Source of the DNA: Chloroflexota bacterium
Lineage (GTDB): Bacteria; Chloroflexota; Dehalococcoidia; SHYD01; JACQUQ01
Reading direction: 5' to 3'
Assembly: GCA_016210175.1 (NCBI GenBank)
Contig: JACQUQ010000078.1
Location: 1 to 62,637, forward strand
Length of the DNA stretch: 62,637 nucleotides
Below, in pieces: positions 1,634-22,216 of this stretch. The notes under the pieces are model-generated. The model was not told where the DNA came from, made no database searches, and worked only from the letters and a program-made list of their open reading frames with translations. The translations under genes were made by a program, and so were the position numbers. The number at the start of each line of letters is the position of its first letter. Positions within the stretch are counted from its first letter, which is position 1.

Positions 1634-1651
1634 CGGCGCGGCCTGTCCATG

Positions 1652-2210
1652 CTTTCAGTACCCTAAAAGCGGGTCGATTGATTGCAAGCGACGTGCCCGA
1701 GGAGCCAGTCCCGCAAAGGGTCCGGCTCTTTCAGTACCCTAAAAGCGGGTCGATTGATTGCAAGGGGGCAGGCAGTGACCGCCGGTGCAATGCCATGCGG
1801 TCTTTCAGTACCCTAAAAGCGGGTCGATTGATTGCAAGGCCTCCTAGCGTTAGGGTTGTGACCTGTGTTGCTATTTCTTTCAGTACCCTAAAAGCGGGTC
1901 GATTGATTGCAAGGGCACCCTGCGCAACTCCACGATGCGATCTCTAATTGACTTTCAGTACCCTAAAAGCGGGTCGATTGATTGCAAGGATGGTGCCTGC
2001 GGGGATATTTGCCTGCCGTCAAGGTCTTTCAGTACCCTAAAAGCGGGTCGATTGATTGCAAGATGCACTTATCGAGACCGACCTGGTGAAGCTCGATCTT
2101 TCAGTACCCTAAAAGCGGGTCGATTGATTGCAAGCACCGGGAGCGTTTGCTGCACCTGGCGGAGATCGAGGGCCTTTCAGTACCCTAAAAGCGGGTCGAT
2201 TGATTGCAAG
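1652..2210 (-). CRISPR. CRISPR array, 8 identical 37-bp repeats, 7 spacers of 35-39 bp
   Basis: Repeat (+ strand) CTTTCAGTACCCTAAAAGCGGGTCGATTGATTGCAAG starts at 1652, 1728, 1802, 1877, 1952, 2026, 2098 and 2174. Its reverse complement ends in ACTGAAAG, resembling the 8-nt 5' handle of type I/III crRNAs, so transcription is inferred to be on the minus strand. Confidence 0.98.
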
Positions 2211-2305
2211 TCCATCTGACTTCCCGGAGCGGGCGGGCTGGCAAGACCTCCGGAGATGGTTGAGGTCCTCTGGCGGGCATGCTGGGCCCTGCGTCCCTGA
2301 CGCCT

Positions 2306-3433: not shown

Positions 3434-4381
3434 CTATCCTGAAGGGGTGAATAGCCCGTAGCCCACCGCCGTTTTGGCGCCTATGCCAAGGTTGCTCAAG
3501 GCATCATGCAGCCACCGCTCCGCCTGTGCGCGGTCTGCCGGCGCGGCATCCGGGCGCGTGTGGAGGGCGGTGCGGAACCGTGTCCCGGCAGGGACGGTTA
3601 GGAAGAAGACGGGTTGGGGTGCCAGCCAGTCACCCGGTTGTCTCACCTTGCCCTGGTAGTATTCAGCGAAGTGGGGGTTGAGTACATCCACGCGTACGCG
3701 CGGCGGCTCCACCGGATACAGGGCGTGGAAGACCACCGTGCCGGCGCCCCCCGCTTCGGCTGTCTCCGCCGGGCGGTCGCCAAAGGTGCGGGCGAGCGTC
3801 GGCCCAACCAGCCCCTCCCAATGCTGGGCCCAGGCGCGCGTCGCCCCCTTGAGGCTGCTGGCAGGGAGGAAAGGGACGCCCAGGTTGCGGTCCCATACGA
3901 ACCCAACCTCCAGGGCATGGGTCATGCCGGTGCCGCTCACGAGCGGTGTCGCTAGGGTCACGTCCACCTCGTGGGCATCCAGGAAACGCCAGAGGGCCGC
4001 CCTGCGCTCATGGAGCGCGCGGAGCAGCGATGCAAGCTGCGGAGCGACATCCTGGGCGTGCTGGGCCATCTCCTCCAGGAACCGTTGCCGCACCGATCCG
4101 CCGTCCCGCGAGGTTTGTGGCTCCCAGTTCCCGGCATCCCCAGACCAGATATCGGCATAGCGGTCGTACAGCAGGCCAAGGTTGGCGGTCGTGGGCGGAC
4201 GAGGTCGAAGGAGGTCGCGCGCCTCCCGGTACACGGGCCGTACCCGCGCCGGTGGCCCACCCCGGTCCTGCGGGCCTGCCCGTCGGTTGAGGCCCGGTGG
4301 CCTTCCGCCTCCGTCCGGACCCCGGATGCCGCCCCGCCCGCCCTGTGGGGACCGTTCCTCCCTGCGCGGTGGCCGGTTCAT
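3434..4381 (-). CDS. cmr6: Type III-B CRISPR RAMP protein Cmr6
   Basis: TPLVSGTGMTHALEVGFVWDRNLGVPFLPASSLKGATRAWA...HFAEYYQG...GIGAKTAVGYGLF. Start taken at MNRPPR. Confidence 0.9.
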   Translation of the reverse strand: MNRPPRREERSPQGGRGGIRGPDGGGRPPGLNRRAGPQDRGGPPARVRPVYREARDLLRPRPPTTANLGLLYDRYADIWSGDAGNWEPQTSRDGGSVRQRFLEEMAQHAQDVAPQLASLLRALHERRAALWRFLDAHEVDVTLATPLVSGTGMTHALEVGFVWDRNLGVPFLPASSLKGATRAWAQHWEGLVGPTLARTFGDRPAETAEAGGAGTVVFHALYPVEPPRVRVDVLNPHFAEYYQGKVRQPGDWLAPQPVFFLTVPAGTRFRTALHTRPDAAPADRAQAERWLHDALSNLGIGAKTAVGYGLFTPSG

Positions 4382-4427
4382 CGTTCCTCCTTCAGCGCGT
4401 ACGCGCCAGCAAACGTCCGCATCTTCC

Positions 4428-4871
4428 CTATTCCTCGGCCCCCGGTACCGGGCGACTATGCTCCGGCAAGTACGCGTCGGCGAACTTCCGCATCCACCCC
4501 AGGAGCGCCAGGGCTGTCTGCTGTGCCTGTTGGTACTCGGCACGTGAGCCCGCCATCAACGCCGCCATGAGGTCGGTCCCTTCCCGGTATACCTGATCGG
4601 GCCGCTCACTCTGGTGGGATACCGGCCCCAGCCAGTCTTGCAGCTCCTCATACAGCGCCCGCGCTGCCTGTGCCTGCACGCCTTTTCCCCCGGTAGCGGC
4701 CAGCAAGTAGGCGAGGGCCTGGCCCAGCCCGTTCTGGAGCACCATGCTCGGCAGCGAGCGTACCAGGGTCCCGTACTGCGAGGCGTACTTGTCCTGGGCA
4801 TGACGCTGGACGGTCTGGAGGGCGTAGAGCGCCCGTTGCTGTTCCAGGGTCTGCCTAGCCAAGAGCGCCAC
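4428..4871 (-). CDS. cmr5: Type III-B CRISPR protein Cmr5
   Basis: Small helical protein (KYASQYGTLVRSLPSMVLQNGLGQALAYLLA) between cmr4 and cmr6. Confidence 0.9.
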   Translation of the reverse strand: MALLARQTLEQQRALYALQTVQRHAQDKYASQYGTLVRSLPSMVLQNGLGQALAYLLAATGGKGVQAQAARALYEELQDWLGPVSHQSERPDQVYREGTDLMAALMAGSRAEYQQAQQTALALLGWMRKFADAYLPEHSRPVPGAEE

Positions 4872-5844
4872 CTCCCTGTTCTAGCACCCGCACCGCGCAC
4901 CAACCGTGCCCCACTGTCTCGTTGCCGCCCACCTGGACGAAGAAGGGATCGCCGTGGACCAACTCCAGGAACTGGTCCCGTACCGCTTCGGCGCTGGGGG
5001 TACCGGCGCGCTGGCGCCGCTCCAGAGGCGTGCGTGGCTCTTCCGGGAGGACCAACGTCGTGAACAAGCTATCGGCGGGCACCGTCTCCTCATACCAGAG
5101 GTTCCCCCCGCCTCCGGTGGTGGTTTTGTGCTCATTGAGGGCGACACGTGCGGTCACCTGGGTCGCATGCTTCACGAGATACGCGAAATCACCGTCGCTG
5201 ATGAGCGCCACATGACGGGCAAACTTCTCCCGGTAGGTCCGGTGGGCCTCCCCGGCGGGCAGGAGCTCCGCCAGCCATGCCGCCAGATCGCTCCAGGCAC
5301 CGTCTCGGTCCACCTGGAACGAGAGGTCTTCCAGCACGACGGTGCCGGAGCGTTCGTCTGCGGCGATCAGCCGGCCCGGGGCGGGTTGGAGCTGATCGGG
5401 AGAGGACAGGTCTGGCGCCGCGGCAGCGGCCAGGCGCAGGTCCCGTGCCAGCCGGCCCAGCGCCAGGGGGCAGGTGACCCAGAGAAATACGTCGGTCAGG
5501 CTGCGCACCGGGAAGGCCAGCAGCCGGGCATCGCTGAAGGCCAGCGCCCCGGCGTGCAGGTCACTCCCACCACCGGCCTGGGGCCTGGGGCCGAAGAGCA
5601 GGTCCACCAGCCCATCCCGGCCCGACCAGCGGCCCTCCGCTAACCGGCGCAAGCTGCCTTTGAGGCTGGTGGACGGGATAATGGGGAAGTCGGTGTGGCG
5701 CTCCCGCTGCACCGGGAGGTCCACGATCCCCGTGCTCTGACCGGTCCCCGGGTGCAGGGGAGTTTCCGTGTACAGGGCCAGCACCACCGGGGCCGCGCCC
5801 GCGGCGCGCCCGGTGGCAGTGGTCTGGTGGGACGGTATGGTCAT
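4855..5844 (-). CDS. cmr4: Type III-B CRISPR RAMP protein Cmr4
   Basis: LALYTETPLHPGTGQSTGIVDLPVQRERHTDFPIIPSTSLKGSLR...GGNETVGHGWCAVRVL. Confidence 0.93.
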   Translation of the reverse strand: MTIPSHQTTATGRAAGAAPVVLALYTETPLHPGTGQSTGIVDLPVQRERHTDFPIIPSTSLKGSLRRLAEGRWSGRDGLVDLLFGPRPQAGGGSDLHAGALAFSDARLLAFPVRSLTDVFLWVTCPLALGRLARDLRLAAAAAPDLSSPDQLQPAPGRLIAADERSGTVVLEDLSFQVDRDGAWSDLAAWLAELLPAGEAHRTYREKFARHVALISDGDFAYLVKHATQVTARVALNEHKTTTGGGGNLWYEETVPADSLFTTLVLPEEPRTPLERRQRAGTPSAEAVRDQFLELVHGDPFFVQVGGNETVGHGWCAVRVLEQGGGALG

Positions 5845-6980
5845 CGCGTTCCTCCTTCGCTCCAATAGCCGACCACGACGTGGCCGAACCCCGCACGCCC
5901 CCGTGTACCGAGCTTCCGGTCGTGCCATGCGCCGAGGTCGGCGCCGTCCTGGGCGTGTAGGAAATAGACGCTGCCCGCAGGCACGCACGCTTCGGCGGGC
6001 TTGGGCCGCCCCGCGGCGATGTCCCAGCCACCGATACGCGCAGGCTTGTCCACTGCCGCGGAGACGATGGTCACCGCCTGCCCTTCCAGGTCGCCGTGCC
6101 ACCCGTCACCAGCTTGACGGAATTCCTGGGGGAGCCACCGGCCACCCCAGCGTGCCGGGGTCAGCAAAACCAGGCGGGCCCGCGCGCCGCCCGGCGTGAC
6201 CGGTGTGGAGGGCTCCTGATGCACCTCGACAGCGGCCAACCGACCTTCCCCACCCAGGCGGTGGAGGCCGGCGCACCGCTCCTGGAGCAGGGCATCAATG
6301 CCGTTCACCCGCAAGCCGATGCCCACCCGCCCGGCGTGGTCATCCTTGAGGCGGACAAAGACCGGGGCGTAGAGCATCCCTTCCTCGGTGGCGCGCGACG
6401 CTGGGTTGCGCCCGATACCGACCCGCCGCTCCTCGCAGAAAAACGCGGATGCCTTCGCGATCTGGCTATCCGGCACGAGATCCCCTCTTAGGTAGGCGGC
6501 GAGCCCTTCCTGGGAGATCCACATCCCGACCTTGGTCTCGCGGTCGCCCTCCTCCAGCTTCGGGAGGAAGGACACTGCCCCCAGGTCGCAGTCCAGAGGA
6601 TCGCCGGGGTTCGTCGGGTGCCATACGCTGCCTTCCCGTCCTCGCAGGTCCAGGGGCGCGGGGTACCAGCGCTGCACCACCCCACCCGCCTGCCGGATGA
6701 GGTAGGGGCCACGCAGGTCAAGCTGTCCCAGGTCATCCAGACCCCCCAAGAGCTTAATGGCCTCTGGCACCTCCGGGAAGCCGCCACCCCTTCCCTGCAC
6801 CGCAGCCGCATAGTCTTGGACGGCGACGCCCAGGGCGGCCAGCAACGCCGTCCGCACAAAGCCCTGCATGACCTCCGGGGAGGGCGGAAAACGGCTGTGG
6901 ATCACGGTAGCCTCGCCGGCGTTCATGGGTTCCAGGCCCCTGAAGAACAGCACGTCCAGGGGAAAGATGCGCCATTCCAT
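5841..6980 (-). CDS. cmr3: Type III-B CRISPR RAMP protein Cmr3
   Basis: MEWRIFPLDVLFFRGLEPMNAGEATVIHSRFPPSPEVMQGFVRTALL...RVGIGRN...; overlaps cmr4 by 4 nt. Confidence 0.92.
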   Translation of the reverse strand: MEWRIFPLDVLFFRGLEPMNAGEATVIHSRFPPSPEVMQGFVRTALLAALGVAVQDYAAAVQGRGGGFPEVPEAIKLLGGLDDLGQLDLRGPYLIRQAGGVVQRWYPAPLDLRGREGSVWHPTNPGDPLDCDLGAVSFLPKLEEGDRETKVGMWISQEGLAAYLRGDLVPDSQIAKASAFFCEERRVGIGRNPASRATEEGMLYAPVFVRLKDDHAGRVGIGLRVNGIDALLQERCAGLHRLGGEGRLAAVEVHQEPSTPVTPGGARARLVLLTPARWGGRWLPQEFRQAGDGWHGDLEGQAVTIVSAAVDKPARIGGWDIAAGRPKPAEACVPAGSVYFLHAQDGADLGAWHDRKLGTRGRAGFGHVVVGYWSEGGTR

Positions 6981-6982
6981 GA

Positions 6983-8839
6983 TCAATCCTCCTCTCCGGC
7001 GAGGAAGGCCGCCAGCAGCACCGGTGCCGTATCCCGCCAACCCACCCCGGCCAGGCGGCGCAGCACCACGACCCGCGCCTCAGCTTCCTCACGGGTGGCC
7101 GTCCGCTCTCGGCTCTTGAGGTACTCGGCCGCCAGCAGCTTATCTACCGTCTCCTCCGTCCATTCTGGGCTGGCGGCGGGGAGCAGGTCCCGCAGATGGT
7201 AGAGGAACCCGCGGCCGTACTGGTTCTTTTCCAGCTTCTTTCCCAGCCCATCCCTGACCGTCTCAATATCATCCACGAGCGGGATGTCCCCCTCCCGACC
7301 GCTGTCCCACTTCCTGGCGAACTCCAGGACGATGCCCGGCCGCTTCCACACCGCCACGGCCAGCGCATCCCGGCCCGCGGTGTCTTTGGCCTGCTCCTCC
7401 AGGATGCGGTGGGCAGTGGCGACGACCTCCCGCAGCGGGGCGTTCATGTGGGCGTAAACCAGCCCGGCGCTGATAGTCGCTTTCATCTCTGGCAGGTGCT
7501 TCGTGAACTCGTCGTGGTACGTCCCTCGGAGGTCTGCTGCGACCCGCAGCGCCGTATCTTTGGGCAGCAGGGCCAGCACATCGTCGCCTCCCGCATAGAT
7601 CAAGACCCCATTGGCCTCCCGCCCTTCTACGATCTCCGGCACCCGGCGGCTGAATGCTGCGAGGGCTTGGGAGATGTGCTCCTTCCGGTCAGCATGTGTC
7701 CGCAAGAGCTTTCCCATCGAGTCTCCGTCCATTGCCAGGAGTGCGTAGGACGTGCTCGGCATGGGCAGACGCACGGCACGCACTGCGTCCAGAAGCTCCC
7801 GCAGCGTCCCCAGGACCGCCGTCCGCTGGTCGCCCAGTTCCGCCTCCCGCTCGCGGTCACCTACCACCTCCGGGGAGAACCAGTCGCCGTCGATCTGGAT
7901 GAAAGCATCCGCGACTTCCCGGTCACTTGGAGACCAGGCATCGGCCGCGTCCCGGAGCGCCGGAAAGAACGAGCGCGGGATGCTGAGCGGGACCCTGGCT
8001 TCCTCAAGTGCCCACATATGCAGCGATACCGCATCCCGTAGCCGAGGGTCGGTCGCTCCGGCCTTCAGCACGCTGAGCCGCCAGGGAATGCTGGCCATCG
8101 TCGTTGTCGAAGGAAAGCCCGTGGGTACCGACCACCCAAGGGCGTCGGCCGCAATGTAAGGAAAGAATCGTTTGACCGTGCATAGCGTGCAGAGCCGTTC
8201 CTTGCCCTTCGGCTGCACATCGTGCAGCCCCCCGTGGTGTGCGACCTCCGTCCAGAAGTCACGCACCTCCTTGCGCGAACCGTCGCCGGCGTGCAGGGCC
8301 TCCCGCGCGCCGCAGCAGGTACACTTCTCCCCCGGCTCGTCCTCCAGTGTGAAGGCCCGTAGCGTCTTGCGGCGGGCCATCCCGGCTGGATCGCCCAGGA
8401 CCCAGGCGTGAGTCCAGACGCCAGCGACTTGTCGCTCCCAAACCTCACCCGTCGTTGCGGTCCAGGGGAGACGTCGCCGTTGCCACTCCGCCCGGACGGC
8501 CTTGCTCACGCGCTTCCACGCCTCCTGCCACCCAGCAACCGCCGCCTGGGCGACCTGGCCGGCCCGTTCCGCGGGAGCCCGCAGTTCTGCCACGTGCGGG
8601 ATCGATCCCACGCGGCTGCCGCTCTCCTGGGGCACGCCGCCACGCCTGAGCGCATCCATCAGCGGGTTGCCCTCGATGGCCGGGAGCACCATCTCACAGG
8701 AGTCGGCGACGCGTGCCAGCGCGCTGCCCGCCAGATAGGACAGCAGGTAGGACCCGGCCCACAGGTCCCGGGTGCGCCGGGCCTGGCTGATGAACTCCTG
8801 GACTGGGCCAAACGCGAGGTAGATGGTCTGTTCGCTCAC
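6983..8839 (-). CDS. cmr2: Type III-B CRISPR Cas10/Cmr2, no N-terminal HD domain, intact GGDD cyclase motif
   Basis: VSEQTIYLAFGPVQEFISQARRTRDLWAGSYLLSYL at the extreme N-terminus; CTCC...LCTLC zinc site; ALLAMDGDSMGKLL; LIYAGGDDVLALLP. GTG start overlaps cmr1 stop. Confidence 0.95.
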   Translation of the reverse strand: MSEQTIYLAFGPVQEFISQARRTRDLWAGSYLLSYLAGSALARVADSCEMVLPAIEGNPLMDALRRGGVPQESGSRVGSIPHVAELRAPAERAGQVAQAAVAGWQEAWKRVSKAVRAEWQRRRLPWTATTGEVWERQVAGVWTHAWVLGDPAGMARRKTLRAFTLEDEPGEKCTCCGAREALHAGDGSRKEVRDFWTEVAHHGGLHDVQPKGKERLCTLCTVKRFFPYIAADALGWSVPTGFPSTTTMASIPWRLSVLKAGATDPRLRDAVSLHMWALEEARVPLSIPRSFFPALRDAADAWSPSDREVADAFIQIDGDWFSPEVVGDREREAELGDQRTAVLGTLRELLDAVRAVRLPMPSTSYALLAMDGDSMGKLLRTHADRKEHISQALAAFSRRVPEIVEGREANGVLIYAGGDDVLALLPKDTALRVAADLRGTYHDEFTKHLPEMKATISAGLVYAHMNAPLREVVATAHRILEEQAKDTAGRDALAVAVWKRPGIVLEFARKWDSGREGDIPLVDDIETVRDGLGKKLEKNQYGRGFLYHLRDLLPAASPEWTEETVDKLLAAEYLKSRERTATREEAEARVVVLRRLAGVGWRDTAPVLLAAFLAGEED

Positions 8840-9873
8840 AGCCGCACCTCCACCGCATCGGGCTGCTGCTCGTCCAGGAAGTCCTGGACCACCTGCCGGG
8901 TATTGTCGGGCCAGCGCACGCCGTCCAGGTCGGGCAGCGGCGCGGGTAGGAAGAGGAAAGCCAGATGGTAGGAATGGCCCAGGCGCAGCACCCGCATGAA
9001 CAGCGGCGAGGCCATCCGTTCCTGGGACACCACGGTGAGCGGCAGTCCGAAGCCCACCCGTTCCGCGACCTTGACGCCACGGCGGAAGCGTTGCAGGCGT
9101 AAGCCCGCGTCGTCCAGCGCCCTTTCCCACGAGTCGAAGCCCTGCCGCAGCACCAACAGTCGCACACCAGGAGCGACGATAGTGTGATCGTTCCCCGGAA
9201 GAGTCGGGAACCAGCGGCGCAGGGTCAGGAGGCCGCTCCCAATCTGGGATTGCCAATCCTCTGGTGTTGCGGCCTGAGAGGGGAGAGGGAGGTCTCCACA
9301 GTCCGGCCAGCCTTCCCAGCCTTCGATACGCAGGCTGCCCAGCCCACGCCGGGAGCGGCTGCCCACACCACCGACATGGACCAGCAGCCAGAGCGATGCC
9401 AACCAGGCGCGCCGCACCTCCGGCGTGTCGCAGCCCGGGCGGGGCTGCACCTCCAGGGTGAAGGCGCTGGGGCTGGTAGGAATCGCCCGGCGGTCGTTAT
9501 CGCCCAAGACGAGGGAGTATCCCAGGTACACGATGCCATTCTCCGGGGGACGCCCGCCGCGTTGGAACCCTCCCCGGTTGACGGGCTGCGTATAGCGGTT
9601 TCGATCCCACCGGATCCTCCCTACCTGCCACTCGCTGACCCGCAGCAGGCAGGGGGATTGCCCGGCCTCCGTACTCCCGAAGAGCCGCGCTTCGCGGGTG
9701 GCGTACTCCCCGTCCAGTGCGGCGTACTCCCCGTCCAGTGCCCGGTACCAGTAGCGTAACAGACCCTTGAACGACGGTGGCCGCAGTTCGGCATACTCGT
9801 TGGGGTCGGCCCCTCCTAGAAACAGGGGCGTCACCGCCGACAGGGCCACGGTCAGTTTAGAGGGTGGGGCCAT
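8836..9873 (-). CDS. cmr1: Type III-B CRISPR RAMP protein Cmr1
   Basis: LSAVTPLFLGGADPNEYAELRPPSFKGLLRYWYRAL...HVGGVGSRSRRGLGSL. Confidence 0.93.
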   Translation of the reverse strand: MAPPSKLTVALSAVTPLFLGGADPNEYAELRPPSFKGLLRYWYRALDGEYAALDGEYATREARLFGSTEAGQSPCLLRVSEWQVGRIRWDRNRYTQPVNRGGFQRGGRPPENGIVYLGYSLVLGDNDRRAIPTSPSAFTLEVQPRPGCDTPEVRRAWLASLWLLVHVGGVGSRSRRGLGSLRIEGWEGWPDCGDLPLPSQAATPEDWQSQIGSGLLTLRRWFPTLPGNDHTIVAPGVRLLVLRQGFDSWERALDDAGLRLQRFRRGVKVAERVGFGLPLTVVSQERMASPLFMRVLRLGHSYHLAFLFLPAPLPDLDGVRWPDNTRQVVQDFLDEQQPDAVEVRL

Positions 9874-11587
9874 CCTCCTGTTCCTCCTGTTCTGCTTCCG
9901 TGCCGTCCAGCACGACCAGTTCCCCCAGCACGAAGGGGTGTGCCCGCTGCTCCTCCGGTGTGCGGCGGTCCACCACCGCCACCCGCCGCACCGCAACACC
10001 CAAGCTACGTGCTGCGCCCGCGATCTGTTCCACGACGTACTGGATGACGGTGGTGCCCCCGGTCAGGTTGACCACGACCTCGCTTGCCTCGACGAGGCTG
10101 CGACGGAACTCGCCATCCAGCAGCGCACGCCCTTCCTGAAAGCCGGTCATGGGGTCTCTCAGTTCCCGCACCACCACCGGAAGCCCCGCCACGTCCGCCG
10201 CAGCCAGCGCGTCCGGAAGCCGCTGCCGTCCCTCGGCCGAAGTGATGACCACGACCCGGTCGGGTCGGACGTGCTGTACCGCCGAGTACAGCACGCCGGG
10301 AGAAAGGCCCAGCGGAGTCACCAGCAGCCGCATGATCCTAGACCGTTGCTGGGCGAGGCGTGGAAGGTCAGGGTCGGCCAGCAGGGCGGCACACTGCTGG
10401 ATGAGGTGGCCCACTTCCGCCACGTCGCCGGGCGTGAGGCGCACTTCGTCCTCGGTCATACCGGCGTGCGCGAACCGGTTGCGACGCTGCGCCACTCCGT
10501 CCCAGACGGTCGCCAGACGCTGCTCGGTAGCCGTAGCCACCCCGCTCCGCACGCGCTGGACCATACCACCGAGCTGGCGCTCCGCGGCCAGGCGTTGGGG
10601 GCGGCCCAGCCACTGCCGGGGACCACTGCTGCGCAGCACCACCAAGCTGACCAGCCACTCCCGCAGGAGCAGCAGCGCCGTTGGCAGGGCGTTCCGTTCA
10701 GCGTACCATTGGACCAGTGCGAGCTGGCGTTGCAGTTCCTCATCAGAGAGTGGCAGGTCCCGCTTGGACGGAGCGGGACGCGTCGCCCATGATGCCACCG
10801 GCCCACTGAGGATCCCCAACGAGCGCCGCCCCACCGATTGCGGACCGGCCTGCTGGGCGAGGGTCTCAACGGCAGCGTGCAACCGCCCGGCGGCCAGCCC
10901 GACCTCTACCGGCAGCCCGGCGGCCAGCGCCGGCGCCAAGTCTTCGATCGCGTCCTTGGCGCGGGAGAGCGCATGATCGCCCTGCCGCTCCTGGAAGAGC
11001 CGGGCCACCTCCTGCCGCAAAGAGTGTGCCACTGGCCGCAGGTCGCCGCTTTCGCGCGCGCTCTGCACTGCGTGGAACCATTCCGTCAAATTGAAGAGGG
11101 CGGTCAGGTCGAGGATCGGCCGCTCTCCCGTCTCCGGGTCTGGCAGTTCGAAGGCCCCATAGTAAATGCCCCGGATCGTGACCCCCCGGTAGGCCGTCAG
11201 GTAGGTGAGCGCGGCCAAATAGACGAAGGGGAGGTGGCGCAGGGCAAAGGTCACGTCAAGGACTACGGACTCCCCCTCCCCTACAGCTTCCACCAGCCGG
11301 TGGAAGGTTTCGAGGAACTCCTCGCGCGTTTTGCCTTCCGGCATGTCCACCGCCTCGGGCTCCAAGCCAGCTTCTGCCAACTCTGCGGCTACTGCCGGAT
11401 ACCATTTGTCCCGAGCGCCGGACGTGACCAGGACACTGGCTTTCCCTCCACGCAGATCCCGCAGCCGCGCCAGGGCAACCGGTGCGAAGCGACTGGCCCA
11501 CGTGCGGTCGTCGAGGGCATAGACCGTCTCGGTGTAGTTGCCCGTTCCGACCGAGCAGACCAGGTGGGGTACCTCCTGCGTCATCAT
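9857..11587 (-). CDS. csx1: Csx1-like CARF-HEPN ribonuclease with an apparent additional C-terminal CARF domain
   Basis: TM1812-type N-terminal CARF (HLVCSVGTGNYTETVYAL...VVLDVTFALRHLPFVYLAALTYL...DLTALFNLTEWFHAV); HEPN motif RNRFAH (Rx4H); C-terminal LLVTPLGLSPGVLYSAVQHVRPDRVVVITS...VVVNLTGGTTVIQYVVEQIAGAARSLG. Confidence 0.85.
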   Translation of the reverse strand: MMTQEVPHLVCSVGTGNYTETVYALDDRTWASRFAPVALARLRDLRGGKASVLVTSGARDKWYPAVAAELAEAGLEPEAVDMPEGKTREEFLETFHRLVEAVGEGESVVLDVTFALRHLPFVYLAALTYLTAYRGVTIRGIYYGAFELPDPETGERPILDLTALFNLTEWFHAVQSARESGDLRPVAHSLRQEVARLFQERQGDHALSRAKDAIEDLAPALAAGLPVEVGLAAGRLHAAVETLAQQAGPQSVGRRSLGILSGPVASWATRPAPSKRDLPLSDEELQRQLALVQWYAERNALPTALLLLREWLVSLVVLRSSGPRQWLGRPQRLAAERQLGGMVQRVRSGVATATEQRLATVWDGVAQRRNRFAHAGMTEDEVRLTPGDVAEVGHLIQQCAALLADPDLPRLAQQRSRIMRLLVTPLGLSPGVLYSAVQHVRPDRVVVITSAEGRQRLPDALAAADVAGLPVVVRELRDPMTGFQEGRALLDGEFRRSLVEASEVVVNLTGGTTVIQYVVEQIAGAARSLGVAVRRVAVVDRRTPEEQRAHPFVLGELVVLDGTEAEQEEQEDGPTL

Positions 11588-11669: not shown

Positions 11670-12293
11670 TCACCACACATCCGGGCACAGATTGCGGAAC
11701 TCGCAGTCCACGCACCTCCCCCGCATCCGGGTGGCCTCCGGAAGCGCCTCCTGCGCGATCGCCGCCCGGATCTCCCGTAAAGCTTTCCGCACCCAGCCCC
11801 GCATGTTCGACGTGATGCGCACCTCCTGGGCCCGCTTCTGGGGGATGAGGTAGATGAAGCCCCGGCGCACCGGACGCCGCCAGACCTCCTCCACCAGCAG
11901 GGCGTACGCCGTCAGCTGGTACTTGTGGTTCAGCCCGACCGCACCCTCGGAGTTCTTGAAGTCCACCGGGATGACCTCCCCCAGCGCCTCGACGACCATA
12001 TCCAGCCGGCCCCGCAGGCCCAGCCGGTCCGAGGACACGGCCACATCGAAGTGGCGCTGACCCTCAGCGAGGCCGTAGGCCCGCAGGCTCCGCCGCTCCT
12101 CCAGCTCGGCGATACGCTCGTGCTCCCGCCGGCCCTCCTCCATCTTGTAGGTGGTGGGCCGGGCCCGCACCGGCAGCAAATACGAGTAGTAGACGATGCG
12201 CGGGCAGTAGGGGTACTGCTTCACGTCGCTCACCGTGAGCATGAGGGGAGCCTCCCCGACGAGGGAGGGGCTAGCGGTCCACTCGGTAGTCAT
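11670..12293 (-). CDS. cas4: CRISPR-associated exonuclease Cas4
   Basis: DVKQYPYCPRIVYY...LRGRLDMVVE...IPVDFKNSEG...YQLTAYALLVEE...CVDCEFRNLCPDVW (RecB-like motifs and Cys cluster). Confidence 0.95.
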   Translation of the reverse strand: MTTEWTASPSLVGEAPLMLTVSDVKQYPYCPRIVYYSYLLPVRARPTTYKMEEGRREHERIAELEERRSLRAYGLAEGQRHFDVAVSSDRLGLRGRLDMVVEALGEVIPVDFKNSEGAVGLNHKYQLTAYALLVEEVWRRPVRRGFIYLIPQKRAQEVRITSNMRGWVRKALREIRAAIAQEALPEATRMRGRCVDCEFRNLCPDVW

Positions 12294-12537
12294 CGGTGAC
12301 CACCTCTTTCATGAGGCGGAGGTCCTTCTCGCACACGGGCACCAGCTGGATGCGCGCCGGCCGCTGCCCGATAATGCGGCGCAGGCGCAGCAGGATCTCC
12401 TGCTGGCGGTTGTGGTTGAGCTCGCCCAGGAAAGCGCTGTACTGGACGCGGGCCAGGCCGTAGTCCAGGCAGGCGTCGGCCACCTTGGCCCGCGTCCCGT
12501 CGTGGGGGATGTCGTAGAGGAGGAGCACGGTGGTCAC
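12271..12537 (-). CDS. cas2: CRISPR-associated endonuclease Cas2
   Basis: MTTVLLLYDIPHDGTRAKVADACLDYGLARVQYSAFLGELN; overlaps cas4 by 23 nt. Confidence 0.96.
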   Translation of the reverse strand: MTTVLLLYDIPHDGTRAKVADACLDYGLARVQYSAFLGELNHNRQQEILLRLRRIIGQRPARIQLVPVCEKDLRLMKEVVTDDYRVDR

Positions 12538-12555
12538 TGGACGTATCCTTGGCGG

Positions 12556-14886
12556 TCAGTCGGGAGACATATCGGTGCGCAGGCCGATTTCGGGATCGTA
12601 CGGGAGGTTAATGGTGTTCAGGAACCAATCCTTCTCCCACGACAAGTGCTCGCGGAAGCGGTGCTCTTGCCATTCGGCAATGGGGACGAGAAGCTCGTTG
12701 GCGTGAAGGACAGAGGCTTCCCGCCGTCGTTCGTATTCATTCCGGAGGGCGAGAGGAAGCACTTCTGTGCCCTCGAACAGGTCGTCAAACTGGCGGCCGA
12801 GATCTTCGTCGCTCGCGAACGCCCGCAACGTGTCCAGGCATCCTCGCTGAAAGGTCATGAGAGCGCCCTCCACCCGGCGGATCCATTCCTCCGCCAGACC
12901 ATCCTTATACGCCTGGTCCAGCCACTCGCTCAGGCGGGCTTCGTCAATGTCTTCCCCATCGTGGCCGGACAGGATATCCAAACAGTTCTCGACCAGCCCG
13001 TCGTCGTAAATCCGTTGCCCGCTGCGGGGCTGGGTAAGCACCGTGACCGGCACGATCCCTTTCCTGCCCCGGCGATTGACGCGACCGAAACGCTGGGCCA
13101 GCGCTTCCAGGGGGGCGGGCTCTGTGACGATCCCGTCGAAGTCCAAATCCAGGCTGACCTCAATGACCTGTGTGGCCACCACTGCCAAGGGCCGAGAAGT
13201 CCCCAGTCGGCTGCGGATCACCTCTTCCTTTGCCAGCCGGTCTTCCACGGTGAACCGACTGTGCAGGAGCAGCACGGTTTCGGGGCCGAGCCGGTCCCGT
13301 AGCTCCTGCCAAGCTGTCTGCGCGGTCCGCACAGTGTTGGCGGCGACCAGGAGACGCTGGTTCTTGCGGCAGCGCTCGGCAATATGGTCAAGGATGGAGG
13401 GCGAGAGCAACTCGCCCTCCATGAGCTCAATCCTGTGCCGGCGGAACTCAGCAAAGAGGGATGGTTCCACAGCGAGCCGCTGGAGGCCCAAGTGCTTATC
13501 GAGCAGCCCAGCGAGCCAGGTGGGTGTCGTCGCGCTCATCGAGCAGACGACGCTGCCCCATGTACGCTGGAGTTCGGCTACGAGGCCAACGAGCAAGCCA
13601 AGCCGCTCCGCCTCATACGCATGGACCTCATCGAGGAGAAGGATGCTTCCACTCATTGCAGTCCAGAGGGCTTCATAGCCTCGCACGCGGTAGGCCGCAC
13701 GCAGCAACTGGTACGGTGTCGTGACCCATATCGCAGGCTGGTGCAGACGAGTCAGGTCAGTAGCTCGACGCGCGGCCAAATCCGCCTCCCGCGCTCGGTA
13801 GCCCTTCTGCTCCGTCAATTCCTTGTACAAGACCTGTGCGCTCCTCCCGTGCATGAGCGCGATGGGAGCGCCGGTCAGCCGTTGCAGCCGCGTCCGCATC
13901 GCATTGATACTCGCCTGATAGGGCAGCACGTAAATAAGACTCGCGTGGTGCCGCTCCTCCGTCTGCCTGCGCGCCCAGAGGAGCGCGGCCTCGGTTTTGC
14001 CGCTCCCCGTTGGGGCGACGAACATGATCGGGCCGCTCTGCTGCGCGGCGTCCCGCTGGTGCGAGCGGAGTGCCGAGAGGTTCAGCGTACGCAGGGTTTG
14101 GTCGGCATCTGGAAGGACCAGAGGCGCCAGGGGCGAGGCGTGGGCAGAGCCGAGATGATCCGAGAGCAACACCAGACCGCGCAGCGCCACGGCAGCACGG
14201 TTTTCCGGGCTGTCGGCAGGTTGCGCTCCGAGGCGACGCCACAACCGCTCATAGGCCCGCAGCCCGCGCCGGATCACCGCACTCGCCTCTTCGCAAAAGC
14301 GCTTCGGGTCGGGTGAGGTCGGGACTGCCCTGGGCGCTTCAACGTGCTCCGCGAATCCGAGCTCCGTAATCCACGGGCCGCTCATCGCGGAAAGCCACTG
14401 GGCAACCCCCGTAATCCACTTGTGTTGGATGCTGGCGATCCATTGCTCGATGTCCCAGTCCTCGACAGGAAAGTTGGGATTATAGCGCTCCGCGATGATC
14501 TCCTCAGCATCTCGATGGTGCGAAGCGATTCCCGCCGCGATCCACGGGAAGTCGGGGCCAGTGGGGTCCGCGACCCAGGGGAGGAAGGCCAGCGAGAAGA
14601 CCTCGTGGCGGTGACCTCTCCAGGATGCGCCGGTGCGGAGGTAGTCTTGGAATCCTTGCGTAAGCTTGCCCAGGTCATGGAGCCAGCAGGCCCAGAAGGC
14701 ACGGTGCGATAGTCGAGGCTCGCCCACCAGCTCCGGAAGCTGGGGATGTCGTTGCGCAAGCTGTGCCAAGCGACGCAGCACCTGCCGGGTATGCTGGGTA
14801 ATGGACTCACCAGCCTGGCCGCCGGTACCGCTTTTCGCAAAGGCATCCGCCAGCAAGGTTTGCCAATCGGAGTTACGGACCATCAT
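12556..14886 (-). CDS. cas3: CRISPR-associated Cas3, HD nuclease plus DExH helicase
   Basis: HD residues (ITQHTRQVL, CWLHDLGKL, ASHHRD); Walker A APTGSGKTEAA; LLDEVHAYE; SMSATTP; QRFGRVNRRGR. Confidence 0.96.
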   Translation of the reverse strand: MMVRNSDWQTLLADAFAKSGTGGQAGESITQHTRQVLRRLAQLAQRHPQLPELVGEPRLSHRAFWACWLHDLGKLTQGFQDYLRTGASWRGHRHEVFSLAFLPWVADPTGPDFPWIAAGIASHHRDAEEIIAERYNPNFPVEDWDIEQWIASIQHKWITGVAQWLSAMSGPWITELGFAEHVEAPRAVPTSPDPKRFCEEASAVIRRGLRAYERLWRRLGAQPADSPENRAAVALRGLVLLSDHLGSAHASPLAPLVLPDADQTLRTLNLSALRSHQRDAAQQSGPIMFVAPTGSGKTEAALLWARRQTEERHHASLIYVLPYQASINAMRTRLQRLTGAPIALMHGRSAQVLYKELTEQKGYRAREADLAARRATDLTRLHQPAIWVTTPYQLLRAAYRVRGYEALWTAMSGSILLLDEVHAYEAERLGLLVGLVAELQRTWGSVVCSMSATTPTWLAGLLDKHLGLQRLAVEPSLFAEFRRHRIELMEGELLSPSILDHIAERCRKNQRLLVAANTVRTAQTAWQELRDRLGPETVLLLHSRFTVEDRLAKEEVIRSRLGTSRPLAVVATQVIEVSLDLDFDGIVTEPAPLEALAQRFGRVNRRGRKGIVPVTVLTQPRSGQRIYDDGLVENCLDILSGHDGEDIDEARLSEWLDQAYKDGLAEEWIRRVEGALMTFQRGCLDTLRAFASDEDLGRQFDDLFEGTEVLPLALRNEYERRREASVLHANELLVPIAEWQEHRFREHLSWEKDWFLNTINLPYDPEIGLRTDMSPD

Positions 14887-15640
14887 GTGCTCCATCGAAC
14901 CGGTGCCACACCACGATGCGGCGCAGACCATTTTCCTCCGGGCTCAGCGGGTCTATCGAGAAAATCTCGCCCGGATCGGGTCGCATCGCTGAGGTTCCCT
15001 GGGTTGCTCCCTCACGGACCGCTACCCGGCGCTCCAGCACGACGTAGGGAGCCCACTCCACCCGTCGGCGATCCGTCGGGTCGATGAACCGCGGCATGGT
15101 TGCCATAACACCCACCGGGGTGCGCAGCCGCCAAGTCCAGGGGAGCAGCGTCCCTTCGAGGTAGCCCGATGCGGCCGCTTCCAGGTCCACGACTTGGACG
15201 GTGCGGTAGGCCGCCAGGTCCTGGGACCGACCCAAGACCACCGGGTAGCAGGGCTCGCGGAAGGCGCGCTCCAATTGCTCCAGCCAGCCCGGTGCGTCCA
15301 AGTACAACACCATCCGAGGGAACAGCAAGACCTCCCGCAAGAGCGGGTTGATATTCCCTTCCAGGTTCTTGGTGAACCCCATCGCCCTGTCGAGGCGTCC
15401 GCTGGCCGCCTCCACCAGGTGGGTGTTTTCCAGGTCATCCCCCTTTCCGGCAGCGGTGAAGGAGTAGGCGAACCGCAGCGTCGCCCGGTCGGGGAACTCG
15501 CCGAGCGCGCTGGCACTGTGTCCGTAGACCGTGGCGGGCGGCGGCATGGGAAAGCTAGGCTGCCGCCCCACCAGGAAATGGGGATACCGGAAGGATGTCG
15601 TCGTCCCTTCCAACTCGATGCGGAGCACCTGGCCGGCCAT
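14873..15640 (-). CDS. cas5: CRISPR-associated Cas5 (type I-B-like)
   Basis: LRIELEGTTTSFRYPHFLVGRQPSFPMPPPATVYGHSASALGE. Confidence 0.92.
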   Translation of the reverse strand: MAGQVLRIELEGTTTSFRYPHFLVGRQPSFPMPPPATVYGHSASALGEFPDRATLRFAYSFTAAGKGDDLENTHLVEAASGRLDRAMGFTKNLEGNINPLLREVLLFPRMVLYLDAPGWLEQLERAFREPCYPVVLGRSQDLAAYRTVQVVDLEAAASGYLEGTLLPWTWRLRTPVGVMATMPRFIDPTDRRRVEWAPYVVLERRVAVREGATQGTSAMRPDPGEIFSIDPLSPEENGLRRIVVWHRFDGAHDGP

Positions 15641-15641
15641 G

Positions 15642-16754
15642 CTAGGCCATCCACGCGCTGCTCTGCTCCCCCCCAAGGTCCTCCGTCAACTGCGACAGGA
15701 TGGCACGGGGGTGGTCGAGCCGGTATTCCAGAGGCGGCTGCCGCAGGTCGCTATCTTGGGCGATCTCCTGGAGCGCCTTTTCCAGCGCGCTCCGCTGGTC
15801 GTCGTAGAACCCCTGCACCCAGCCCGCATAGAGCGGTGAAATCATCTGGTCGCCCCAGGCGCGAACCATCTCCTTCAGGGCATCGGTATGGATCCGGAGT
15901 TGCCCATCGGGGCCTGCTCCCACTACATATTGCAGCGGGTCGTTCCCTCCTTTGAAGACGCCTGCCAGGATGACGACCGGTGAGACATCGGTGTAGTGGA
16001 GAGCCTGCTTTGCGCCCCCGGAGACCAGGGCAAGTCCTTTGAGAAGAGCGGCTACCCGCTCAATCCGATCATCGATTTTCAGGCGGTAGCTCTTTTCCTG
16101 TGCGATGTACTCCAGGCCCGCGTCTACCGCCTGCTTGACGCGGTTGTCATCCAGGTTGCGATAGCCTGAACGCTGCACTTCGCTAAAGGTGCCCACCGCA
16201 TGTAGGTTCAGGGAAATGAGGCCCTTCAAGACGGCACGATAGAACTGGTGCTCGTGGGGGACCGGATCCCCTTCGTGCCGGGACATGGTACCGAAGTCGC
16301 GGGTCAGCGTGACGGGTGCGATGGCAATGAGCGGACTCACCCGGAACGGAGACACACGGGTAATCTCGCCGGTCGTGGGCGTCTCGCGGCCTACCCGGGA
16401 CTGATCGGCTTGGCGCGCCGCCGCAGCTTCTGTACGTCGGGAAGGTGCGCGCATGTACCCGAAAAGGTCGTCTTCCCAATACTCAATGGGGTTGCCATCA
16501 GTGTAGGCGACCTTTTGCTCCCGGAAGATGGGTGAGTTGATCCACGGGAGCTCTCCAGCCGCCGCGGCGGAGGCAAGGGTGGTGCGTAGCCAATAGCGGA
16601 ACGCCTGGGCCGAGACATAGGGGTAGGCCCCGTGCCGTGTCTTGATGACCTTGGTTGCAACAGCATTGTCCGTGCTTGCCTCCGGATCTCCCCCGGAGTT
16701 GTTCAAGGCCGATGCCGGCGCATCGACGAGGATGATACCGCTAAGGTACGCCAT
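15642..16754 (-). CDS. cas7: CRISPR-associated Cas7, Cst2/DevR-like
   Basis: YLSGIILVDAPASALNNSGG...TKVIKTRHGAYPYVSAQAFRYWLRTTL...DFGTMSRHEGDPVPHEHQFYRAVLKGLISLNLHAVGTF. Confidence 0.93.
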   Translation of the reverse strand: MAYLSGIILVDAPASALNNSGGDPEASTDNAVATKVIKTRHGAYPYVSAQAFRYWLRTTLASAAAAGELPWINSPIFREQKVAYTDGNPIEYWEDDLFGYMRAPSRRTEAAAARQADQSRVGRETPTTGEITRVSPFRVSPLIAIAPVTLTRDFGTMSRHEGDPVPHEHQFYRAVLKGLISLNLHAVGTFSEVQRSGYRNLDDNRVKQAVDAGLEYIAQEKSYRLKIDDRIERVAALLKGLALVSGGAKQALHYTDVSPVVILAGVFKGGNDPLQYVVGAGPDGQLRIHTDALKEMVRAWGDQMISPLYAGWVQGFYDDQRSALEKALQEIAQDSDLRQPPLEYRLDHPRAILSQLTEDLGGEQSSAWMA

Positions 16755-16789
16755 GATCGTCTACCTCCTGTCTGTCCGATGTCCCGACG

Positions 16790-18352
16790 CTAGACCGTTG
16801 CTCCCACTTCTTCGGCTTGTTCGTCAGCTTCCTCCCGGTCAACCTCGCTCATGATCTCTCGCCCTTCGGGCCGCTGGAACCAGCCGAGCCTGCACAGCTC
16901 CTCGACCATCCGGATACGGAGCAAATCCCACGCCAGACGCCAGTCTGCGCGAGCGACCTCCTCCCCCTCTTCAAAGACCGTGAGGAAATCGTCCAAAGTC
17001 ACCAAGGGCTCTCCCAACCGCTGGACACGCCGCCGATCCGCCCGGATGAGCGTATCCCGGACGGTACGATAGTCAGTGCGACCGGAGAAGAACCGCCGGA
17101 AGATCTGCCGGTCGTTGGTGTCGGCAATATCGGCGGCCACTCGATCTGCCAGCGACCGGATAGCTGTGACACGGACCTGTTCCATTCTCAGCACCTCCTC
17201 AAGAAACATGACCACAAAGGGCCAGCGTTCCTGCTTCAGCAGGGTCTCCGGCGTTAGACCTGCGATCTGCTCAGGGCGCCAGTTGAACCAACGGCGCAGA
17301 AATACACCGGCATTGTCGGGGAGCGTAAACAGGTCGTCGTAAAACCGGTTGCGGAGCGCCCGACGCTCTTCTTCCGGTGGCTCCTCGCCTTCTCGCCGCT
17401 TGCCTTCCCAGGCCCGCCGCACCGTCTGGTTCCACACGCCCCGGTATCGCTGGCCCTGCGCCCGCTTCACGAATTGCACGACGTTCGATGGCAAGGGGTA
17501 GATTTCGATGCCCGGACCCTGCCCGCTGTTGGAGAGGTGGTAGACCGTCAGCGGGCCTGCCTTCTCCACTTCCTCATCTTCACCGTCAGGTGCGCGTTCC
17601 TGCTGCCAGCGAGCCAGTGCTTCGATGACGCGCGTGCGCGGCCCGCGGATGTTGGCGGGCTTCGCGTCGGTCTGCACGCTCAACAACCGCTGGAGGGTTG
17701 CGAAGCGGTCTTGAACCACCGCCCTCAGGATTTCCCTATCCGCGGGGGCGTCTCCAACCTCTACAATGACGGCCTTCCCTTCGCAGTAAGGCGCACCGAT
17801 GGAAAGCGCCTGTAAGGCCACGATGCAGAGGCCGCATAGAGCGAGCCCATGTTGTCCCTGGGGAAAGAAGTTTATGACATCGCGACCTGTAAGCATTGGA
17901 ACTAGGTCACGATACGCTCGGGTTACCCCTTCTTTCTTGCATGAAGGACAGATAGCTTCGTGGTGAACCTGATCGCATCTCCCGCATAGGTTGGCAGGTC
18001 GGACGGACGGGCGGTGACAATACGCACACATGGGTCCGGTCTCGTCGAGCGGCCAGTTGAACGCCCTGAGAACCGCTTGGGCGTACTTTACCTTCTGGTT
18101 AGGAGTCCAACTCGTGTTGAGAAAGTTAGACGTGAAAAGCACAGTAAGGTACCCTGACAGTACCTTGCTGAAGTACCATCGTTCAGCTTCCTGGGCCAAC
18201 CGCTCTAGGTCCTCGACGGTGATCTCCTCCGGCATCTCCTTCCTAGCATAGACCAAGATCGCCGCGATCCCCATGTCGGGGAGCGGGTGTCCCGTCCACC
18301 TCAATCCGGCATACTGCTCACTTACCATTGCGCTCTCTCCTGTGATTACCAT
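16790..18352 (-). CDS. cas8: CRISPR-associated Cas8, Cst1-like large subunit
   Basis: YAGLRWTGHPLPDMGIAAILVYARK...CAYCHRPSVRPANLCGRCD...ICPSC...LVPMLTGRDVINFFPQGQHGLALCGLCIVALQALSIGAPYCEGKAV. Start uncertain (18352 or 18328). Confidence 0.88.
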   Translation of the reverse strand: MVITGESAMVSEQYAGLRWTGHPLPDMGIAAILVYARKEMPEEITVEDLERLAQEAERWYFSKVLSGYLTVLFTSNFLNTSWTPNQKVKYAQAVLRAFNWPLDETGPMCAYCHRPSVRPANLCGRCDQVHHEAICPSCKKEGVTRAYRDLVPMLTGRDVINFFPQGQHGLALCGLCIVALQALSIGAPYCEGKAVIVEVGDAPADREILRAVVQDRFATLQRLLSVQTDAKPANIRGPRTRVIEALARWQQERAPDGEDEEVEKAGPLTVYHLSNSGQGPGIEIYPLPSNVVQFVKRAQGQRYRGVWNQTVRRAWEGKRREGEEPPEEERRALRNRFYDDLFTLPDNAGVFLRRWFNWRPEQIAGLTPETLLKQERWPFVVMFLEEVLRMEQVRVTAIRSLADRVAADIADTNDRQIFRRFFSGRTDYRTVRDTLIRADRRRVQRLGEPLVTLDDFLTVFEEGEEVARADWRLAWDLLRIRMVEELCRLGWFQRPEGREIMSEVDREEADEQAEEVGATV

Positions 18353-19359
18353 CTCCCCACAAAGGGCGTATAGGGTTTCCCTTCGCCCCGTACGAAGGTC
18401 GCCAGGTGGCGGGCCTGGCTCATGAGGACCGTCCGCAGCTTGTGCTTCTTGCCCTCGTAGGGCTCTTCCCCATCCAGGCGCTCGTTCACCCGCTCCGCCA
18501 AGAGGCGGCGGGTGGGCTCGGTCAGGCGGCCCTCCTCTACCTCCAGCGTGGCGCCCCGGTTGAGCAGTCCGAACACCGTCCGGTCCACTACCATCTGCCG
18601 GAACTCCTCGATGAGGTCCAGCACCAGGGAGGGCTTGCCCGCCCGGTCGACGTGCAGATACCCGGCATAGGGGTCCAGCCCGGCCAGGAGGATGGCCCGC
18701 TCCACGTGGCTGTACAGGATGCCGTAGCCGTAGTTCAGCAGCGAGTTCACCAGGTCCGTAGCTCCCCGCGTCTCCCGGCCCTCCCAGCCCACGTCCGGCA
18801 CCAGCAGCTCCCGCATGGCTTCCCAGTAGAGCTTGGCCCCGTGGGCCTCCAGGGTCATCAGCTCCTGGCGCAGGGCGTCCACGGTCTCGCTCCGCAGCCC
18901 CTGGACCTGCCGCCCGTAGTCCTGGATGCGGAAGGCCGCTTCCCGGGCCTGGTCGTAGCGGTCGAAGTCCTTCTGCCGCCGGTTCTTGGCCAGGTAGCGC
19001 AGCAGGGTGGCCTGGTTGGCCAGCTTCCCGGCCACGAAGGCCTTGCACAGGGTGACGCCCCGCCCGTCCAGGTAGGCCAGCAGCTGCTCCCGCCGGGTCC
19101 GCACGGTGCCGGTGAGGGCCGGCGAGATGAGGCGGGCGTAGGGCACGCCGCTCCCGGACAAGAAGGTGATGTCGATGCCCCGCTCGGCGCACTCCCGGAT
19201 GACGTCGCTGGAGAGGGAGACGCCCCCGGAGAGCACCAGCACGTGCTCCAGGCCGTAGAGGGGCCGCTCCTCCACCACTTCGCCCTTGAGGGAGACCCGC
19301 ACCCGCTCCGAGTGCTTGCCCACGAAGGCCCCGTATCGCTCCACGATCAGCTCGGCCAT
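18346..19359 (-). CDS. cas1: CRISPR-associated integrase Cas1
   Basis: Catalytic regions KLYWEAM and YLHVDRAGKPSLVLDLIEEFR are intact. Confidence 0.97.
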   Translation of the reverse strand: MAELIVERYGAFVGKHSERVRVSLKGEVVEERPLYGLEHVLVLSGGVSLSSDVIRECAERGIDITFLSGSGVPYARLISPALTGTVRTRREQLLAYLDGRGVTLCKAFVAGKLANQATLLRYLAKNRRQKDFDRYDQAREAAFRIQDYGRQVQGLRSETVDALRQELMTLEAHGAKLYWEAMRELLVPDVGWEGRETRGATDLVNSLLNYGYGILYSHVERAILLAGLDPYAGYLHVDRAGKPSLVLDLIEEFRQMVVDRTVFGLLNRGATLEVEEGRLTEPTRRLLAERVNERLDGEEPYEGKKHKLRTVLMSQARHLATFVRGEGKPYTPFVGRW

Positions 19360-20303
19360 CGCAACCTCACCCACCCATCGCCCTTGGTACAGTCCTTGCC
19401 GATGTGCGTCACCTCGCTCCAGAGGAGCCAGGGCAGGAATGGCCGCAGGTCGCCCCGGAAGGTGATCTCCCCCACCAGCCCGCCGATGGGCGTGAAACGG
19501 CCCTGCCGGGACGAATAGCTGGGCACGTCCACCCAGCGGGTGCGGTCGTCGGCGACCTGCACCGCCTCGGCCTGCTGCAACAGCTCCTGGTGGTCGAAGT
19601 CGGGCCTGGTCCCCGTTGCCGTCTCGCTCAGGTCGGTCAGGCGACGCAGCACCCGCCGCATGAGCAGCGGGAACGTCAGGCGCTTGACCAGCCGCTTCTC
19701 GACGATCAGGCGCAGCGGGGTCAGCAGCGCGACGGTCACCGCCGGCGGGCTGCCCAGCCGCTCGCACGCCGCCAGCACCCCCGCATGGGTGACGGCCAGC
19801 CCCGGCTGGCGCACCACCCGCTCGCCTGCCTCATAGATGCCTTCCGACTCGCCCGATACCGGGACCTGGGCCGAGATGCGCGCGACAGCGAACCGTCCCG
19901 CGGCCCGGCCCCGGTTCCCGATGCCGCCCTCGCCCATACGCCGGACGCCCAGCACGATATAAGGCAGCAGCGGGCGAGCCTCGCCGAACAGCGTGACGCC
20001 GAAGCTGAAGGCATCGCCGGTCCGGTAGAGTGTCCGGTCTTCCAGCGGCGGCTCCACGGTGCAGGGCCGGGCGACCTCCACCCCGCGGGCGCTCTCCTCG
20101 TCGGCGGTGGCCAGCAGCGCACAGACCGGGCACGCCTGCCGGAGACGGCTGTCGGCGCAGGCGCTCCCGCGCTGGTCCAGGCAGAAGTCCCGGCGTAGGG
20201 CACCGAACAGCGCCCCCCGGAGCATGCTGCCCTTATAGGGCGGCGTGACCATGTCGGTCTCGGCTTTGCACGAGAACTGGAGGACGTGGGCCTGGAGGTT
20301 CAT
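19347..20303 (-). CDS. cas6: CRISPR-associated endoribonuclease Cas6
   Basis: GSMLRGALFGALRR...CPVCALLA...FSFGVTLFGEA...FTPIGGLVGEITFRGDLRPFLPWLLWSEVTHIGKDCTKGDGWVRL. Confidence 0.88.
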   Translation of the reverse strand: MNLQAHVLQFSCKAETDMVTPPYKGSMLRGALFGALRRDFCLDQRGSACADSRLRQACPVCALLATADEESARGVEVARPCTVEPPLEDRTLYRTGDAFSFGVTLFGEARPLLPYIVLGVRRMGEGGIGNRGRAAGRFAVARISAQVPVSGESEGIYEAGERVVRQPGLAVTHAGVLAACERLGSPPAVTVALLTPLRLIVEKRLVKRLTFPLLMRRVLRRLTDLSETATGTRPDFDHQELLQQAEAVQVADDRTRWVDVPSYSSRQGRFTPIGGLVGEITFRGDLRPFLPWLLWSEVTHIGKDCTKGDGWVRLRWPS

Positions 20304-22197: not shown

Positions 22198-22216
22198 GGC
22201 TGTCCCTCCCCACACC

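Follow-up and report, generated by a model that had tools for sequence, protein, structure and literature searches.

A Csx1-like protein with a second CARF domain behind its HEPN domain, encoded next to the cmr genes of a Chloroflexota bacterium

A csx1-like gene adjoins the type III-B genes

The DNA analyzed here (the window) is a stretch of 62,637 nucleotides from a Chloroflexota bacterium. Its features of interest are listed in Table 1. The csx1-like gene starts with an ATG at 11587 (or 11584), preceded by the Shine-Dalgarno-like GGAGGG, about 80 nt past the end of the neighbouring cas4, and stops with TAA at 9857-9859. It is followed on the same strand by cmr1, cas10/cmr2, cmr3, cmr4, cmr5, cmr6 and a Csa1-like cas4, and a type I-B module lies upstream of it. 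From this order and the spacing we infer that it is the first gene of a complete III-B operon. The 17-nt overlap with cmr1 reported in an earlier note on this DNA is exact and includes the stop codon (the cmr1 start codon is at 9873-9871), which supports the suggestion made there that the protein is likely produced together with the Cmr effector.

Table 1. Features of the CRISPR locus in the window and domains of the csx1-like gene product.
Feature	Position	Strand	Evidence
csx1-like gene, CARF2-HEPN-CARF, 576 aa	9857..11587	(-)	ORF translation; PADLOC PDLC01839 E=1.3e-136, residues 8-560
N-terminal CARF (CARF2/TM1812 type), residues ~7-181	11045..11569	(-)	TIGR02221 E=2e-22; DSSP of AF2 model
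Helical linker and HEPN ribonuclease domain, residues ~182-410	10358..11044	(-)	RNRFAH; Foldseek to Csx1/Csm6
RNRFAH, residues 369-374	10466-10483	(-)	motif position in translation
C-terminal CARF, residues ~418-560	9908..10336	(-)	AF2, Foldseek, PADLOC PDLC01839 positions 380-517 E=6.3e-49
Overlap of csx1-like gene 3' end with cmr1 start, 17 nt	9857..9873	(-)	sequence
cmr1	8836..9873	(-)	PF03787 2.2e-19, TIGR01894 8e-14
cas10/cmr2 with GGDD cyclase motif	6983..8815	(-)	TIGR02577 1.5e-50; YAGGDDVLALLPK in translation
cmr3, cmr4, cmr5 (4431-4871), cmr6	3434..6992	(-)	NCBIfam/PADLOC
Type I-B module: cas4, cas3, cas5b, cas7b, cas8b, cas1, cas6	11670..20303	(-)	Pfam/PADLOC
CRISPR array, 8 repeats, 72-76 nt spacing	1648..2223	not assigned	

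Several other features of the locus were recorded. Two Cas4-type genes are present, the Csa1-like one (2497-3403, TIGR01896 3.2e-35) beside the array and an ordinary cas4 (11670-12293, PF01930 1.2e-17) between the III-B and I-B modules. The cmr1 gene contains an exact 21-nt tandem duplication (9700-9741), so that ALDGEYA is encoded twice. By the I-B module, at 20344-23458, a HerA-like ATPase gene (DUF87, 3.7e-19) adjoins an ORF of 413 aa, which matched no Pfam or PADLOC profile and may encode a NurA-like partner of the ATPase.

Domain composition and predicted fold

All three parts that the earlier note had read in a protein of ~577 aa, namely a TM1812/Csx1-type N-terminal CARF, a HEPN region with the Rx4H motif RNRFAH and a C-terminal Rossmann/CARF-like unit, are present in the translated minus-strand ORF. 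Chance similarity is excluded by the match to PDLC01839 along most of the protein and by that of NCBIfam TIGR02221 to the N-terminal CARF (N-CARF), while the Pfam profile search of the protein matched no family. The N-CARF carries the motif DVTFALRHLPF (first residue 111). The C-terminal CARF (C-CARF), which ends about 16 residues before the C-terminus, carries LGLSPG from residue 426 (motif I, G428-L429-S430-P431) and TGGTT at 509-513 (motif II, T509-G-G-T-T513). The protein has the R-x4-6-H motif of Csx1/Csm6 ribonucleases, which is kept in relatives (R-N-x3-H in P0002-P0004, L039 and the second L041 piece; the loci are described below), and, like these ribonucleases, it is linked to a type III effector, here the cmr1-6 operon with an intact Cas10 cyclase motif.

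Modelled alone with AF2 from a six-sequence alignment, the C-terminal domain reached pLDDT 88.4 and pTM 0.86. CARF proteins occupy the first 29 places among its Foldseek matches: the top eight are Thermus thermophilus Csm6 (best E=1.1e-7, TM 0.67), followed by Cam1, Can2, Csx1-Crn2, Csm6', Can1, Cdn1 and Card1. The structure comparison of the tail alone, which the earlier note had proposed as a check, thus returned a CARF fold. In the whole-protein model (pLDDT 78.5, pTM 0.52) the arrangement between the domains is less certain; its closest solved fold is the Csx1-Crn2 fusion (PDB 8y6z, E=2.8e-15). Among PDB sequences, phmmer with the whole protein found no match, and the profile of the C-CARF matched weakly Can1 and Cdn1 only. 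Internal duplication of the N-CARF as the source of the C-CARF was rejected, the hhalign probability between the two being 0.2%.

A rare family with a catalogued architecture

The domain order is already known and gives its name to three PADLOC-DB profiles, CARF2--CARF_HEPN_CARF (PDLC01838, PDLC01839 and PDLC01840), and the family was therefore known by sequence by 2023. PDLC01839 matched at profile positions 2-517 of 518, and the matches to PDLC01840 and PDLC01838 are also near-full-length. Searched alone, the C-CARF has its best matches in the C-terminal parts of the three models (6e-49 to 2e-32) and its next in the second CARF region of Can1 (E=9.5e-10). The PADLOC CARF labels presumably follow the 2020 classification of the CARF superfamily; a survey of 2014 had mentioned, in general terms, proteins in which two CARF domains are fused. 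The earlier note's statement that no characterised protein of this order is known agrees with the literature searched, where we found no biochemical study and met the phrase in a single paper only, within CARF-HEPN-CARF-HEPN (Csm6-2). The protein is an additional member of a catalogued, apparently unstudied architecture.

Six natural members were collected, the window protein and five others, four from Chloroflexota or an unassigned phylum and one from Obscuribacterales. Identities are 49-50% for L008/L037 (L037 from Chloroflexi/Chloroflexota), 46% for L002/L038 (L038 from Chloroflexi/Chloroflexota, L002 in the class of the window), 47% for L039 and 42-52% for L003+L006 / L040+L042 (L040 and L042 from Chloroflexi/Chloroflexota, L003 in the class of the window), apparently a single gene divided between two contigs. 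The most distant member, L041 (7947-9739, 33-34% identity), comes from a Candidatus Obscuribacterales MAG; its gene has an apparent frameshift just upstream of the HEPN motif, which may be a sequencing error.

Members of the family are rare. Of the 399 genomes sampled across the phylum, two contained the C-CARF and 28 had a match to the CARF-HEPN part; among the 396 genomes of the class, three matched the C-CARF strongly. When genome contigs were scanned, a single-sequence query found no relative and an alignment-based query recovered the relatives. Scans of viral contigs yielded no relative, and TBLASTN against plasmids yielded CARF-HEPN relatives only, spanning the first two-thirds of the protein, with no match to the C-CARF.

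Overlap of the gene with cmr1 is seen in the window, in L008 and in L003; in L039 the overlap is with the start of cmr2, by 4 nt. The neighbours of the L038 gene (7905-9593) are molybdopterin and formate-dehydrogenase-like ORFs, and no cas genes were seen in the long ORFs read on this 11-kb contig. One locus, L015, was considered as a split CARF-HEPN / C-CARF pair and rejected, because the gene downstream encodes a CARF4-PDDEXK effector that carries the common GGTK. CARF8-TM (Cam1-like) genes adjoin CARF-HEPN genes in two of the phylum's genomes (L019 and L020), so that two cA4-type effectors are paired there.

Conservation of the tail and of its ligand site

Pairwise identity among members is 32-57% for the C-CARF, 35-60% for the sensor N-CARF and 29-40% for the HEPN part. 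The C-CARF equals the N-CARF in conservation and exceeds the HEPN part, which argues that it is under selection and is not a relic. Its ligand-site motifs, GxSPG and TGGTT, rank with the best-conserved columns of the alignment.

The signatures of CARF ring nucleases are motif I (GTS) and motif II (G-R-K) (PMC10018336). The matching residues of T. thermophilus Csm6 are G58-T59-S60 and K137; K137A abolishes binding of cA4, cleavage is lost in T59A/S60A, and Y161 and N164 take part in it (PMC10897365). In the C-CARF, the motif-I Gly and Ser are invariant in all six members, as is a Ser that aligns with Thr81, an adenine-contacting residue in T. thermophilus Csm6. The position of Thr59 is L/F/N/D, so that motif I reads G-[L/F/N/D]-S in place of G-T-S. 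The basic residue (Lys/Arg) of motif II is replaced: Thr stands at the position of Lys137 in all six members (Thr513 in the window protein), a position that holds the essential Lys in CARF ring nucleases and in most cA4 sensors. The position of Tyr161 is non-aromatic and that of Asn164 is Arg in five members and Gln in L041. All other CARFs examined beside Csx1-like genes (L015, L019, L020, L025 and L046) keep GGTK; TTHB144 has GGTK and T. thermophilus Csm6 has SGTK.

The only known CARF that matches the motif-II Thr is the second CARF of Can1, whose Thr384 contacts cA4 across from Lys90 in the first CARF; no ring nuclease activity of Can1 was seen (PMC6981274). With Thr for Lys and the cleavage residues absent, the signatures speak against a Crn1-like mechanism and not against binding of cyclic oligoadenylate (cOA). 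On these residues, a possible ring-nuclease role of the C-CARF is less well supported than first proposed.

Possible roles of the second CARF domain

Upon binding of target RNA, Cas10 would make cOA, most likely cA4; its binding by the dimer of N-terminal CARFs would open the HEPN dimer, and RNA would be cut. The fused C-CARF may also bind the ring and damp the signal in a constant 1:1 ratio, through slow ring cleavage or through sequestration (as a sponge). We give an even chance to the reading of the protein as a cOA-activated Csx1 whose C-CARF damps the signal; taken separately, damping by cleavage is a tentative proposal and damping as a sponge a less probable one.

The conservation of the tail, its CARF fold with cA4-binding CARFs as the best structural matches, and the invariant motif-I Gly/Ser and Thr81-aligned Ser are consistent with damping, as is the closest full-length solved fold, a fusion that limits itself. 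Damping is also favoured by analogy, since the same class of Csx1 is found fused to Csx3, Csx16, Csx20 and Crn2. PADLOC models of the CARF2-HEPN class carry tails of Csx3, Csx16 or Csx20; cA4 ring nuclease activity is confirmed for Csx16 and Csx20 (PMC12409355), Csx3 is the cA4 ring nuclease Crn3 (PMC7371418), and in the self-limiting Csx1-Crn2 of Marinitoga the Crn2 tail is a cA4 ring nuclease (PMC7293037). A sponge role was raised for Csx15 by the authors of the ring nuclease survey (PMC12409355). Among the loci collected, L004 (1486-3012), in the same class, encodes a Csx1 of 508 aa with a C-terminal Csx3 (Crn3; PF09620 E=1.7e-6), hence a fusion of Csx1 and a ring nuclease, and adjoins a cmr6-like gene.

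The ORFs scanned in this cas locus included no ring nuclease gene. The genome of the window, which is 91%-complete, gave no match to Crn1 (PF09651) or Crn2 (PF08960), for which positive controls were detected, and none to Csx3 (PF09620) or Csx16 (PF09652), for which no positive control was detected either, so that these two negatives carry no information. The absence of a separate ring nuclease counts for little, since only 39% of loci with cA4-activated effectors have one and about 61% do not (PMC12409355).

The ligand-site residues stand against damping: the motif-II Lys is Thr in every member, the equivalents of Thr59, Tyr161 and Asn164 are gone, and Can1, which has the same Thr in its second CARF, showed no ring nuclease activity (PMC6981274). 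The tail could instead be a CARF adapted to hold cOA uncleaved or to bind another ring, a built-in sponge or second-signal gate with the Lys-to-Thr change as its mark, by which a single protein would answer the alarm signal and buffer it as well; we put this forward with some doubt. Similarly, it is possible, and in our judgement not probable, that the C-CARF is a second sensor which binds the same or another cOA and adjusts HEPN activation, the ligand not being destroyed. The CARF fold, the conserved residues typical of ligand contact, the missing catalytic residues and the next closest profile, that of Can1, whose Thr contacts cA4 with no cleavage (PMC6981274), would all agree with such a sensor; however, no known Csx1 requires two CARF inputs, and a C-CARF homodimer with no basic residue at the base of its pocket may bind cA4 poorly.

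The motif-II Lys and the cleavage residues are missing from every member, which could also mean that nucleotide binding was lost and that the C-CARF serves in oligomerisation or docking, for example to the Cmr complex. The oligomeric state does matter in Csx1, SisCsx1 requiring a homo-hexamer (PMC10897365), but the high conservation of GxSPG and TGGTT is unlike that of a degenerate pocket, and we consider this role improbable. In monomeric Can1, a CARF with the Lys and one with the Thr pair around one cOA (PMC6981274). Pairing of this kind between the N- and C-CARF of a single chain would fit Arg117 of the N-CARF at the DxTHG-motif position and Thr513 of the C-CARF. Such pairing is very improbable, though, as the N-CARF belongs to the CARF2 class, which homodimerises in Csx1, its profile is unlike that of the C-CARF, and the HEPN domain requires a dimer.

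CARF_HEPN_CARF proteins are catalogued in a defence-gene library, and their C-CARF is conserved like a sensor yet lacks the residue considered essential for binding cA4. This makes it a clean test case for whether a CARF can damp cOA signalling with no ring cleavage, and for how far motif signatures reach in predicting ring nucleases. A 2025 survey of ring nucleases applied a length cut-off of 250 aa (PMC12409355), by which fused cases such as CARF-HEPN-CARF would be missed.

Comparison with known systems

The protein shares the domain order of the PADLOC CARF2--CARF_HEPN_CARF models along nearly their full length, and no difference from them was found. With the CARF of T. thermophilus Csm6 (TTHB152) and with Crn1 (Sso2081) the tail shares the CARF fold and the motif-I Gly/Ser, whereas the motif-I Thr, the motif-II Lys and the cleavage Tyr/Asn of those proteins are missing from it. 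The second CARF of Can1 (TTHB155) has the closest profile outside CARF_HEPN_CARF and likewise has Thr for the motif-II Lys; Can1, however, lacks a HEPN and has two domains of the nuclease type, and the Pfam and PADLOC profile results for the window protein include no PD-D/ExK nuclease domain. In Csm6-2 (CARF-HEPN-CARF-HEPN) two CARFs also stand around a HEPN, but that protein, a fused dimer, contains two HEPNs; in the window protein no HEPN follows the second CARF, which belongs to a different type of CARF. The Csx1-Crn2 fusion of Marinitoga (PMC7293037; PDB 8y6z) differs in its tail, which is Crn2 (DUF1874, PF08960) there, with proven ring nuclease activity in that protein only, and a CARF here; what the two have in common is a CARF-HEPN unit followed by a second domain at the C-terminus that binds, or in the present case may bind, cOA.
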